Positions 35,183 to 40,280 of a DNA stretch of 40,423 nt are shown here, piece by piece. The notes below the pieces were generated by a model that had not been told where the DNA came from, made no database searches, and saw only the letters and a program-made list of their open reading frames with translations. Each line of letters begins with the position of its first letter. Positions within the stretch are counted from its first letter, which is position 1. Both the position numbers and the translations under genes were made by a program. The DNA is from Flavobacteriales bacterium (GTDB taxonomy: Bacteria; Bacteroidota; Bacteroidia; Flavobacteriales_E; Vicingaceae): NCBI GenBank assembly GCA_002401955.1, contig NVUQ01000027.1, forward strand, positions 491-40,913, given 5' to 3'.

Positions 35183-38100
35183 TTAATTCAATTTTTCTAT
35201 CGAAATCTTAGTCCTTACCTTGTCTTCTAGTTCTACTGTTATTCCGTTATTTTGTTTCATTTCATCCACTAAATCAAGTTTCCCTGCTAAAGTTTCCGAG
35301 CAAATATAATTTTTATTTTTATTAATTGCTTCATTTATTTGCTCGTGTTTTAATATTTTAAGATGTATCTTATCTGTTACCTCTAAACCACTATCTTTCC
35401 TTAGGTTTTGGATACGATTTACAAATTCTCTCGCCATCCCTTCTTCTCTTAATTCATCTGACAAGATAATATCTAAAGCAACGGTAATTCCTCCTTCAGA
35501 TTGCACTAACCAACCTGGAATATCTTGTGTAGATATCTCTACATCAGCCAACTCTAAAAGCACTTCTTGTCCTTCAATTGTTAAATTTTTAGAGTCTTTA
35601 GATTCTAACTCTGCAATTTCATCGGCACCAAACTGATTAACAGCTGCTGCAATTTGTTTCATTATTTTACCATATTTTGGTCCTAAGGTTTTAAAATTAG
35701 GTTTTATACTTTTTACCAAAACACCTGTAGTATCAACTAAATATTCTAACTCTTTTACATTTGTTTCTGAAAGAATTAAATCTTCAACATCTTGGAGCTG
35801 ACGCTTAAATTTATCGTCTAATATTGGTACCATTATTTTTTGTAATGGTTGTCTAACTTTAATACTCTCTTTCTTTCTCAAGCTTAGCACCATTGAAGAA
35901 ACTTTTTGGGCAATAGACATTCTTTCTTCTAAATCAGTATCGATTACGGTTTTATCTGAAACTGGAAAATCAGATAAATGAACTGAAGTCTTATTTCCTT
36001 TTCCGCTAACTGCAATCAAATCAGAATACAACTGATCCATGTAAAATGGAGCAATAGATGAAGATAATTGAGCAACTACTTCTAAACATTTGTATAATGT
36101 CTGATAGGCAGCAATTTTATCTTGAGAATATTCTCCTTTCCAAAAACGTCTTCTACACAAACGTACATACCAGTTACTTAACTCATCATTAACAAAATCT
36201 TGAATTGCTCGTCCAGCTTTTGTCGGTTCTAAATTCTCAAAACAATCATCTACGACAGTAATTAAAGAATTTAATTTAGAAATAATCCATCTATCAATTT
36301 CTGGTCTTTCATTTACTGAAACTTCTTCTTCGGCATAAGTAAAGCCATCTAAATTAGCATACAATGCGAAAAACCCATAGGTATTATAAAGGGTTCCGAA
36401 AAACTTTCGTTGAACTTCTGTTACACCATCTAAATCAAATTTCAGATTATCCCAAGGTGATGCATTGGTTACCATATACCATCTTGTTGCATCTGCACCG
36501 TATTTTTCTAGCGTATCAAATGGATCAACAGTATTTCCTAATCGCTTAGACATTTTAACTCCACTCTTATCTAAAACTAATCCGTTAGAAATTACATTTT
36601 TATACGCTACAGAATCAAAAACCATAGTTGCAATGGCATGTAATGTAAAAAACCAACCTCTTGTCTGATCTACTCCCTCGGCAATAAAATTAGCTGGGAA
36701 AAACTTATTATCGTCAATTGCTTCTTTATTTTCAAAAGGATAATGTTGTTGAGCATAAGGCATAGAACCAGAATCAAACCAAACATCAATTAAGTCTGAT
36801 TCTCTTTTCATTGGCTTACCTGAAGCAGAAACCAAGGTAATTTCATCTACATAATTTTTATGTAAATCAAAAGTTTTATAATTCTCCTCAGACATATCAC
36901 CAACTACAAAATCAGCTAATGGATTTTCAGTCATTAAACCAGCAGCAATAGCTTTATCCACTTCTTCTTTTAATTGCTCTACTGACGAAATACAAATTTC
37001 TTCATCACCTTCTTCAGTTCTCCAAATAGGAATTGGAATACCCCAATAACGTGAACGAGATAAATTCCAATCGTTTAAGTTTTCTAACCAATTACCAAAA
37101 CGACCTGTTCCAGTACTTTCTGGTTGCCAGTTTATCGTTTTGTTTAATGCTATCATTCTGTCTTTTACGGCAGTAGATTTTATAAACCAAGAATCTAACG
37201 GATAATACAATATGGGCTTATCTGTTCTCCAACAATGTGGGTAACTGTGCTCGTATTTAGAAACGTTAAACGCCTTATTTTCTTCTTTTAATTTGATACA
37301 AAGTTGAACATCAACAGATTTATCTGGAGCTTCTCCATCTTTATAATATTCATTTTTCACATACATCCCAGCAAATTCACCCATTTCTGGTCTAAACCTA
37401 CCTTGTAAATCAACTAAAGGAACTTTATTTCCATTATCATCTAATACCAACATGGCAGGTACTCCCGAATCTTTTGCTACCTGAGCATCATCTTGACCAA
37501 AAGTTGGTGCTATGTGAACGATTCCTGTTCCATCTTCAGTAGTTACAAAATCACCTGCAATTACTTGAAAAGGAGCCCCTCCCAACCTCCCCGAAGGGGA
37601 GGCATATGCTTCCTCACACGGTTGTGCGTAAGGAAGTAGTTGCTCATATTGAATCCCAACTAAATCAGCACCTTTAAATTCTTTAACAACTTTAAAAGGA
37701 ATCTTTTTATCTCCTTCAGAATAATTCAATTCTTCTGACTCAAAATACTTACCTGAAAATTGTTTTCCGATTAATGGTTTAGCTAAAACAACATTTATTG
37801 GTTGGTGTGTATATTGATTAAATGATTTTACCAATACATATTCAATTTTTGGACCTACGGCCAACGCAGTGTTTGATGGTAAAGTCCAAGGAGTTGTTGT
37901 CCAAGCCAAAAAGTGAACATCCCCCTGCCCCCCTTCAAAGGGGGAATCCTGTTGTGGTTTAATCTTAAATTGAGCAACAGCAGTTGTATCTTTTACATCT
38001 TTATAACATCCTGGCTGGTTAATTTCATGAGAACTTAACCCGGTTCCTGCTGCTGGAGAATAAGGCTGAATCGTATACCCTTTATACATCAATCCTTTAG

Positions 38101-38605
38101 CATAAAGCTGCCCCAACAACCACCAAACGGTTTCCATGTATTTATTTTCATAGGTAACATAGGGTTCATCCATATCTACCCAATAACCCATTTTTTGAGT
38201 TAAATCATTCCAAACATCAGTGTATTGCATTACTGTTTCTCTACACTCTTTGTTGTATTGGTCAACAGAAATTTTAGTTCCAATATCCTCTTTAGTAATA
38301 CCTAATTTTTTCTCTACACTTAACTCTACTGGTAAACCATGAGTATCCCAACCTGCTTTACGCTTTACCTGAAATCCTTTTAAGGTTTTATAACGACAAA
38401 ATATATCTTTAATCGCTCTTCCCATTACATGGTGAATACCAGGTAATCCATTTGCAGAAGGTGGTCCTTCATAAAATACGAAAGGATCCTTCCCTTCTCT
38501 TGTTGAGATACTTTTCTCAAAGACTTTATTTGCTTCCCATTTATCTAACACCTCTTTGGCAACATTAGGTAAATCTAGCTTTGGATATGTTTTATATTGG
38601 CTCAT
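35183..38605 (-). CDS. ileS: isoleucyl-tRNA synthetase with repeat-derived insertions
   Basis: 1140 residues. Class I motifs: GIHH (56-59, HIGH equivalent) and KMSKRLGNT (KMSKS). The CP1 editing domain includes FLAWTTTPWTLPSNTAL (232-248) and GDFVTTEDGTGIVHIAPTFG (351-370). Two segments, 220-230 and ~330-345, look like translated palindromic intergenic repeats rather than the family sequence. The C-terminal anticodon region and a long tail follow. The frame is intact and uninterrupted across both, so the protein is presumed functional. It charges tRNA-Ile and edits valine. First gene of ileS-DksA-lspA. Confidence 0.97.
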   Translation of the reverse strand: MSQYKTYPKLDLPNVAKEVLDKWEANKVFEKSISTREGKDPFVFYEGPPSANGLPGIHHVMGRAIKDIFCRYKTLKGFQVKRKAGWDTHGLPVELSVEKKLGITKEDIGTKISVDQYNKECRETVMQYTDVWNDLTQKMGYWVDMDEPYVTYENKYMETVWWLLGQLYAKGLMYKGYTIQPYSPAAGTGLSSHEINQPGCYKDVKDTTAVAQFKIKPQQDSPFEGGQGDVHFLAWTTTPWTLPSNTALAVGPKIEYVLVKSFNQYTHQPINVVLAKPLIGKQFSGKYFESEELNYSEGDKKIPFKVVKEFKGADLVGIQYEQLLPYAQPCEEAYASPSGRLGGAPFQVIAGDFVTTEDGTGIVHIAPTFGQDDAQVAKDSGVPAMLVLDDNGNKVPLVDLQGRFRPEMGEFAGMYVKNEYYKDGEAPDKSVDVQLCIKLKEENKAFNVSKYEHSYPHCWRTDKPILYYPLDSWFIKSTAVKDRMIALNKTINWQPESTGTGRFGNWLENLNDWNLSRSRYWGIPIPIWRTEEGDEEICISSVEQLKEEVDKAIAAGLMTENPLADFVVGDMSEENYKTFDLHKNYVDEITLVSASGKPMKRESDLIDVWFDSGSMPYAQQHYPFENKEAIDDNKFFPANFIAEGVDQTRGWFFTLHAIATMVFDSVAYKNVISNGLVLDKSGVKMSKRLGNTVDPFDTLEKYGADATRWYMVTNASPWDNLKFDLDGVTEVQRKFFGTLYNTYGFFALYANLDGFTYAEEEVSVNERPEIDRWIISKLNSLITVVDDCFENLEPTKAGRAIQDFVNDELSNWYVRLCRRRFWKGEYSQDKIAAYQTLYKCLEVVAQLSSSIAPFYMDQLYSDLIAVSGKGNKTSVHLSDFPVSDKTVIDTDLEERMSIAQKVSSMVLSLRKKESIKVRQPLQKIMVPILDDKFKRQLQDVEDLILSETNVKELEYLVDTTGVLVKSIKPNFKTLGPKYGKIMKQIAAAVNQFGADEIAELESKDSKNLTIEGQEVLLELADVEISTQDIPGWLVQSEGGITVALDIILSDELREEGMAREFVNRIQNLRKDSGLEVTDKIHLKILKHEQINEAINKNKNYICSETLAGKLDLVDEMKQNNGITVELEDKVRTKISIEKLN
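37571..37603. repeat. palindromic repeat inside ileS, type 2
   Basis: CCTCCCC-GAA-GGGGAGG (37586-37602) preceded by AGCCCCTCCCAA. It encodes ASPSGRLGGAP (residues 335-345) in frame. The neighbouring stretch to ~37630 contains another inverted pair (CTTCCT/AGGAAG). Confidence 0.7.
37916..37948. repeat. palindromic repeat inside ileS, type 1
   Basis: CCCCCTT-CA-AAGGGGG (37929-37944) with ATCCCCCTGCCC beside it. It encodes DSPFEGGQGDV (residues 220-230) in frame. A very similar element is in the spacer at 38640-38670. Confidence 0.75.
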
Positions 38606-38639: not shown

Positions 38640-38670
38640 TCTCCCTTTGAAGGGAGATTTAGAGGGATGT
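38640..38670. repeat. intergenic relative of the type 1 element
   Basis: TCTCCCTTTGAAGGGAGA (38640-38657) followed by GAGGGATGT (38662-38670): the same palindrome-plus-tail layout as the ileS type 1 element read on its coding strand. It lies 35 bp upstream of the ileS start. Confidence 0.65.
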
Positions 38671-38756
38671 TTTTTTATTTTGGTTTTAATTTGATGTGAG
38701 ATATAAATATACCCCGAGAAAATTACAAATTCTGATACTCAGAATTTCATTTTCTT

Positions 38757-38773
38757 CCCCCTTTCAAAAGGGG
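38757..38773. repeat. short CCCCTTT/AAAGGGG palindrome
   Basis: CCCCTTT-CA-AAAGGGG (38758-38773) ends three bases from the ridA stop codon. It is probably a trimmed copy of the type 1 element. Confidence 0.5.
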
Positions 38774-38775
38774 AT

Positions 38776-40246: not shown

Positions 40247-40280
40247 AAGCCTTGCAGTAAAATTACTGCAAGGCTTTTTT
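40247..40280 (+). terminator. rho-independent terminator behind tRNA-Ala
   Basis: 14-bp stem AAGCCTTGCAGTAA (40247-40260) with its complement at 40263-40276, very short loop, and six T (40275-40280). It begins 9 bp after the tRNA CCA. Confidence 0.9.

Follow-up and report, generated by a model that had tools for sequence, protein, structure and literature searches.

The isoleucyl-tRNA synthetase gene (ileS) of a Flavobacteriales bacterium raises the question of how palindromic DNA, of a kind also found in the spacers of the same genome, comes to be translated in frame within an essential enzyme. The gene lies in a stretch of 40,423 nucleotides (40.4 kb, henceforth the window) of a 4.19 Mb draft genome in 150 contigs. 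The original prediction, made from the letters alone, was that a palindrome followed by a tail is read as an eleven-residue peptide directly before FLAWTTTPWTLP, and it was borne out: the coding strand reads ATTCCCCCTTTGAAGGGGGGCAGGGGGATGT, encoding D220 to V230, and then continues into FLAWTTTPWTLP, with the hairpin proper at 37929–37944 (site 1, Table 1). The same layout had been claimed for the spacer preceding the gene, and a hairpin with a tail was confirmed there as well. A second in-frame block, absent from the original prediction, was found further along the gene (site 2). At the threshold applied to the window (stem of at least 6, at least 5 G/C pairs, loop of at most 8), the hairpins of these two sites are two of only four in the whole 40.4 kb.

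Table 1. Features of the ileS region; positions count from the first base of the window.
Feature	Position	Strand	Remarks
ileS (isoleucyl-tRNA synthetase, host gene)	35183–38605	-	1140 aa; top solved-structure match by sequence 8c8w (E 5e-235)
ileS site 1: hairpin and G-rich tail	37917–37947	-	In frame as DSPFEGGQGDV, residues 220–230; gap opposite 220–228 in 8c8w
ileS site 2: second unit	37574–37603	-	Coding strand GCCTCCCCTTCGGGGAGGTTGGGAGGGGCT, peptide ASPSGRLGGA; from hairpin scan and translation
ileS site 3, empty in the window	36695–36730	-	About residues 626–637, between HYPFE and FPADF; elsewhere a palindrome alone (G002, G091) or a DUF559 element (G045, G213)
Spacer copy, hairpin and tail layout	38640–38670	+	TCTCCCTTTGAAGGGAGATTTAGAGGGATGT; upstream of ileS; from sequence reading
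Imperfect spacer hairpin, perhaps decayed	38755–38775		TTCCCCCTTTCAAAAGGGGAT; read by eye

In a predicted model of the protein (mean pLDDT 80.5, pTM 0.65) site 1 falls between the strands 201–215 and 230–236, and pLDDT drops below 50 at residues 336–342 (site 2) and 636–638 (site 3), while the alignment with 8c8w has gaps around site 2 too. From model and alignment together we read all three sites as probable surface loops. No spacer copy was visible in the 260 bases that precede ileS in the same-genus genome G010 (L016), a stretch that includes the end of what is apparently the same neighbouring gene. Elsewhere in the window (40247–40276) the inverted repeat AAGCCTTGCAGTAAAATTACTGCAAGGCTT, followed by T residues, comes after a tRNA-like sequence and resembles an ordinary terminator.

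Copies in many spacers of the genome had also been anticipated, and this expectation holds for the palindrome family and fails for the exact sequence. The exact 17-mer of site 1 occurs once in the 4.19 Mb assembly and CCCTTTGAAGGG seven times. Since a search for exact copies of the sequence given in the original prediction returned only the self-match, degenerate patterns were used. The pattern CTCCCN{2,7}GGGAG is present at 32 places in the window's genome, against 2 for the reversed control, and a G-rich tail accompanies it at 21 of the 32. Nineteen of these tailed copies lie outside the deep interior of open frames (at least 200 aa), the two deep ones being ileS site 2 and a copy in recG; four untailed places also lie deep in frames and are chance-like. 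The CTCCC/GGGAG palindrome is a dispersed, mostly intergenic repeat. Its unit of about 30 nt consists of a C-run/G-run hairpin and then a G-rich tail, and in seven examples three to six of the six reading frames are open. In-frame palindromes were also observed in genes for DNA polymerase X (polX, L331:5244–6878), allantoinase (L328:3513–4874) and LpxK (lpxK, L309:813–1886).

When IleRS was aligned with those of close relatives, the extra block proved to be limited to the lineage, and sister species are without it. The same-genus sequences compared have no such blocks at sites 1 and 2, with three exceptions: in G009 site 2 is occupied by decayed DNA (CEEAYASPSGRLEGTPY) whose residues are mostly kept, in G012 site 1 has two inverted units of other sequence, and in G007 site 1 has an apparent decayed unit (MKSLLEEGVREV). 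Another palindrome occupies site 2 of G048, and two inverted units separated by a short spacer stand at site 1 of the loci L038 and L098.

A broader survey of ileS covered 284 loci (L012 to L295), of which 276 had the AWTT motif, 275 could be anchored and 253 were distinct. These segments are a mixture of top matches in one collection and sequences drawn from the family and the class, many of them from draft genomes, and the family-level and order-level surveys draw on the same 46 genomes. A strong hairpin is present in the 90 nt before AWTT in 16 of the 253 distinct genes, compared with 13 of 5812 control windows in the same frames (odds ratio 30, p = 2e-15, the p value being a guide only for sequences related by descent). 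The criterion (perfect stems of at least 7) lets decayed copies such as that of G007 escape. Furthermore, the contrast is conservative, because insertions of this kind account for no fewer than four of the 13 control hits: L012 and L139 (G048) lie at site 2, L017 (G002) lies at site 3, and L136 (G045) marks the left boundary of a DUF559 element inserted at site 3. Among the other control hits, L173 has a different hairpin near site 2 and L280 has one at a fourth place in the gene. By eye, the 16 hairpins at site 1 differ widely from one another (CCCCCTTTGRAGGGGG, CCCTCCCCTTTGGGGAGGG, GTAGGGACGTATTGCC, AAACCTTCAAGG and others); we therefore consider that one loop of the editing domain has been invaded repeatedly. 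Both orientations of the palindrome are found there. The cultured species Brumimicrobium salinarum is among the carriers, with a palindrome at site 1 of its ileS (L050). Site 1 also contains in-frame palindromes of another build, GTAGGGACGTATTGC in L049 and a similar one in L051.

These data bear on an account without any mobile element, in which a G/C-rich hairpin arose by drift in a variable loop, perhaps as an mRNA structure with a regulatory role for ileS. Between the anchors the length does vary, from 26 to 76 aa (survey minus one row with a fallback anchor), as drift would allow. Synonymous resampling, however, produced a mean of 0.1 hairpins and a maximum of 1 against the 16 observed, kindred DNA occupies spacers, and differing sequences in both orientations share a single site. 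The resampling control rules drift out for the ileS hairpin, and as a general account we find it most improbable.

Other genes connect the palindromes with a protein-coding sequence. In the window's genome, recG has an in-frame insertion of about 150 residues between the RecG helicase domains that matches DUF559 (PF04480, E 8e-30), and the right end of this insertion is a palindromic unit of the ileS kind. A standalone DUF559 gene (G000:C40:12373–12690, L444) is found some 3 kb away from the copy within recG (C40:15455–15766, L431). We found DUF559 in 15 of 17 chosen genomes, for a total of 46 matches, of which 24 fell in open frames of more than 200 aa; the genomes of this search, like those of the Y1 and related searches, were selected for elements or long frames, and the rates are not population rates. 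The 30 matches with loci were examined, 19 in frames of more than 200 aa and 11 standalone, and L136, L319 and L434, which duplicate other loci, were dropped before flanks, inverted repeats and tails were counted. By NCBIfam, the hosts of the 19 in-frame copies are metH (6, two in one gene), leuS (4), recG (3), ileS (2), and mutS, recJ, the end of hutG and the start of queG (1 each); one metH copy (L430) is truncated on the left. The metH gene with two insertions, at two different sites, is that of L421 (G223). Pfam domains of the host span the insert, MutS_III (290–734) around DUF559 at 437–543 in MutS and the RecJ DHH domain (82–394) around 141–244 in RecJ. DUF559 was rare in plasmid records (28 of 72,556) and phage records (1 of 50,697), all below 60% identity.

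The ends of the DUF559 copies are palindromic far more often than expected. Hairpins were found in 37 of 60 flanks (150 nt each, 30 copies) and in 7 of 394 control windows (p = 2e-31). Among in-frame copies, the strict scan detected a flanking hairpin on at least one side in 15 of 19, on both sides in 9 and on neither in 4; for standalone copies the figures are 9 of 11 on at least one side and 4 on both. A G tail accompanies 27 of the 40 flank hairpins, and at least one tailed hairpin is present in 20 of the 30 copies. Judged by eye, as were the palindrome families, the tails point outward in the clear in-frame cases (e.g. mutS, left AGCCCATCC, right GGATGGGCT) and inward in the clear standalone cases (L440, L442, L445). 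Standalone genes, with frames of about 125–171 aa, often sit between two inverted palindromes, an arrangement reminiscent of a REP-RAYT unit in which the gene is nuclease-like. When the two ends of each in-frame copy were aligned as inverted repeats, 14 of the 19 scored above the 95% shuffle null, which was not passed by L420, L430, L431 (the recG copy of the window's genome), L438 and L443; both recG copies of this genus score below it (28 vs 31). This result adds less than it seems, because palindromic ends of one family match in inverted orientation by their nature. Such units bound an in-frame DUF559 insertion of about 150 codons in IleRS, LeuRS, RecG, MutS, RecJ and MetH.

The related synthetases show the short and the long form in corresponding loops. 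We scanned leuS and valS in 18 genomes, selected for ileS elements or long frames and so giving no population rates. A hairpin precedes the FTTRPDT motif of leuS in 7 of the 18: the loop contains DUF559 in G012, G098 and G223, a palindrome without DUF559 in G048, G218 and G221, and a weak hairpin in G175. In G213, DUF559 is at another leuS site. Palindromes precede TTRPET of valS in three of the 18 genomes (G200, G175 and, with two units, G223), with none of this kind in G000 or G012; DUF559 was found in none of the 18 valS genes scanned, in which a few other hairpins lie elsewhere. The leuS and valS motifs correspond to AWTT of ileS. We take the palindrome-bearing editing-domain loops of IleRS, LeuRS and ValRS to be equivalent positions in class Ia enzymes, and this common loop may be a recurrent landing place, a point that belongs to the wider reading given below. 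Across various Bacteroidia, in-frame palindromes of this build recur in the same loops of LeuRS, ValRS and (at three sites) IleRS, and the loops of sister species are without them. At ileS site 3, and likewise in the leuS loop, one and the same site carries the full element in some species and a solo palindrome in others.

It could be argued that the palindromes spread alone, like those of Rickettsia, by an unknown mechanism, and that the DUF559 domains are separate passengers that settled in the same tolerant loops or acquired palindromic ends. Most tailed copies in the window's genome do look solo, and a DUF559 search of an earlier set of loci matched only L136 (ileS site 3) and L319 (recG), with none at ileS sites 1 or 2. 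Nevertheless, palindromes flank DUF559 far above background, their tails are oriented consistently within the clear copies of each class, and they share sites with full DUF559 elements, all of which speaks against separate passengers; we regard this account as unlikely, though worth keeping in view.

Another candidate for the mover is a Y1 (RAYT) transposase acting on REP-like elements. The build is suggestive, a palindrome with a one-sided tag being REP-like, and Y1_Tnp matches were present in all nine genomes searched. Hairpins near 30 Y1 loci had a G tail in 4 of 22 cases, and at L368 (G091) three copies of GCGTGCCTAAAGGCACGC lie in or near one Y1_Tnp frame, two of them followed by a G-rich run ending GGGGGCTCTT. 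Yet none of these 22 hairpins (30 loci of 39 Y1 matches, judged by eye) is a unit of the ileS type, and the nearest in build, CCCCAGCTTAAAAGCTGGGG at L388, is without such a tail. On these 30 loci, transposition by Y1 appears improbable. In G213 (L375), the distance between a Y1_Tnp frame and a palindrome with GTAGGGGCGATGCC is 6 nt.

The nature of the inserted domain can be approached through its residues and predicted fold. T43, E46, W50, D74, F75, E85, D87 and H91 are invariant in all 30 copies, and the conserved D, E and H residues are presumably catalytic. The predicted DUF559 fold (pLDDT 85) has as its top match 3hrl, a putative endonuclease-like protein, followed in the Foldseek search by I-Bth0305I (3r3p, E 6e-05) and weakly by Vsr (1vsr, E 0.014); the model suggests that the insert adopts a Vsr/EDxHD-type nuclease fold. 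In a midpoint-rooted tree of the domain, one side holds 10 of the 11 standalone copies with the copy at the start of queG, and the other (100/99) holds the in-frame copies with the G200 standalone gene and the copy at the end of hutG. Copies in recG (98/91) and in ileS (88/78) cluster by host gene; those in metH and leuS have no clear grouping by site, one leuS copy falling among metH and mutS copies. The ileS copies of G045 and G213, which belong to different families, are 68% identical in the core and 59% with the ends included, and their host proteins 65–66%.

Might these domains be fusions retained because they serve the host, rather than selfish DNA? Purifying selection on the recG-borne copy (dN 0.14 and dS 2.6 between G000 and G002, with dS saturated) and the invariant nuclease residues would fit such a function. 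Their scatter over unrelated housekeeping genes, their palindromic ends and the presence of two copies in one metH gene fit it poorly, and we consider it improbable at best.

The explanation we favour, with a probability of roughly 0.58 for the whole, is that the block in the window's ileS is a short mobile palindromic unit, copied into the gene and translated with it, and itself a solo end or deletion form of a DUF559 element. The putative nuclease would cut or nick empty alleles, and repair would copy the element in; the element would persist by keeping the frame and occupying a tolerant loop, so that the enzyme would bear the extra peptide or domain unspliced. On this view both palindromes of the window's ileS would derive from such an element, as solo ends or through deletion; the link for sites 1 and 2 is argued from the parallel cases of site 3 and the leuS loop.

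At about even odds we place the wider reading, that the Bacteroidia harbour a class of mobile element distinct from introns, inteins and REPs: a palindrome-bounded, Vsr-like homing endonuclease domain that enters surface loops of essential enzymes in frame and is then translated and retained in the protein, the short palindromes being its remnants or non-autonomous kin. If so, a selfish nuclease can inhabit essential enzymes without splicing, through tolerant loops, and this would account for the additional peptides, and for the DUF559 domains, that these bacteria have in aminoacyl-tRNA synthetases, MetH and repair proteins, which is relevant to annotation and structural work. Coding palindromes of Rickettsia were reported in 2000, and to our knowledge their mover is still unknown. 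A domain with a homing-endonuclease fold, lying between like palindromes at the same gene sites, offers a candidate mover and turns the question of mobility into a testable one. Among the literature matches listed, all open access, the accessible parts mention neither in-frame DUF559 elements nor coding palindromes of Bacteroidota; those of PMC10969869, PMC3733652 and PMC12306157 contain no description of a palindrome-bounded DUF559 element.

How do these elements compare with known systems? Like inteins, they place a nuclease-like domain in frame in conserved genes; unlike inteins, they have no Hint or intein family among the Pfam matches (E up to 0.05) of the 18 host proteins, several of which are cut at locus ends. 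They recall MITEs in their two-unit short forms (ileS of L038 and L098, valS of G223), which resemble deletions between inverted ends, but the blocks in the window's ileS are single units and no transposase was identified. In the ileS and valS relatives compared, host loops differ too much for an exact empty site or target duplication to be defined.

The resemblance to REP/RAYT systems lies in the short palindrome with a one-sided tag, and a standalone DUF559 gene flanked by an inverted pair of palindromes is similar to what has been termed a REPtron in the accessible part of PMC3733652. The associated gene here, however, is DUF559 and nuclease-like, and the tails in the units we read are G-rich (e.g. 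GAGGGGCT or AGGGGGATGT) rather than GTAG or CGTC, although one standalone end (L437, GGGGGTAGGGGG) contains GTAG. According to the parts of the published accounts available to us, some GTAG and CGTC REPs lie within genes, many of these being replication or repair genes (PMC3733652), and Flavobacterium genomes have many REPs (PMC12306157). With the EDxHD/Vsr homing endonucleases, exemplified by I-Bth0305I, the DUF559 elements share a predicted catalytic-domain fold, conserved acidic and histidine residues and a location in conserved host genes; they differ in that the domain resides within the host protein, between palindromic ends and with no intein domain found in the 18 host proteins, and their homing is putative.

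The closest parallel drawn by the original prediction was with the palindromic elements of Rickettsia, and it stands in part. As in Rickettsia, palindromic DNA is found in frame in unrelated genes and is translated (here ileS, leuS, valS, polX, allantoinase and lpxK, with several palindrome sequences), and the ileS block is a palindrome with a tail that is limited to its lineage, has kin in spacers and is missing from sister species. The parallel breaks down at the unit itself, a hairpin with a G tail of about 30 nt, against about 150 bp for the Rickettsia elements in the accessible part of PMC10969869, which does not mention a DUF559-type endonuclease element. It breaks down also at the presence of unlike palindromes in one and the same loop, and at the existence of a long, nuclease-bearing form, the DUF559 element bounded by palindromes of like build.
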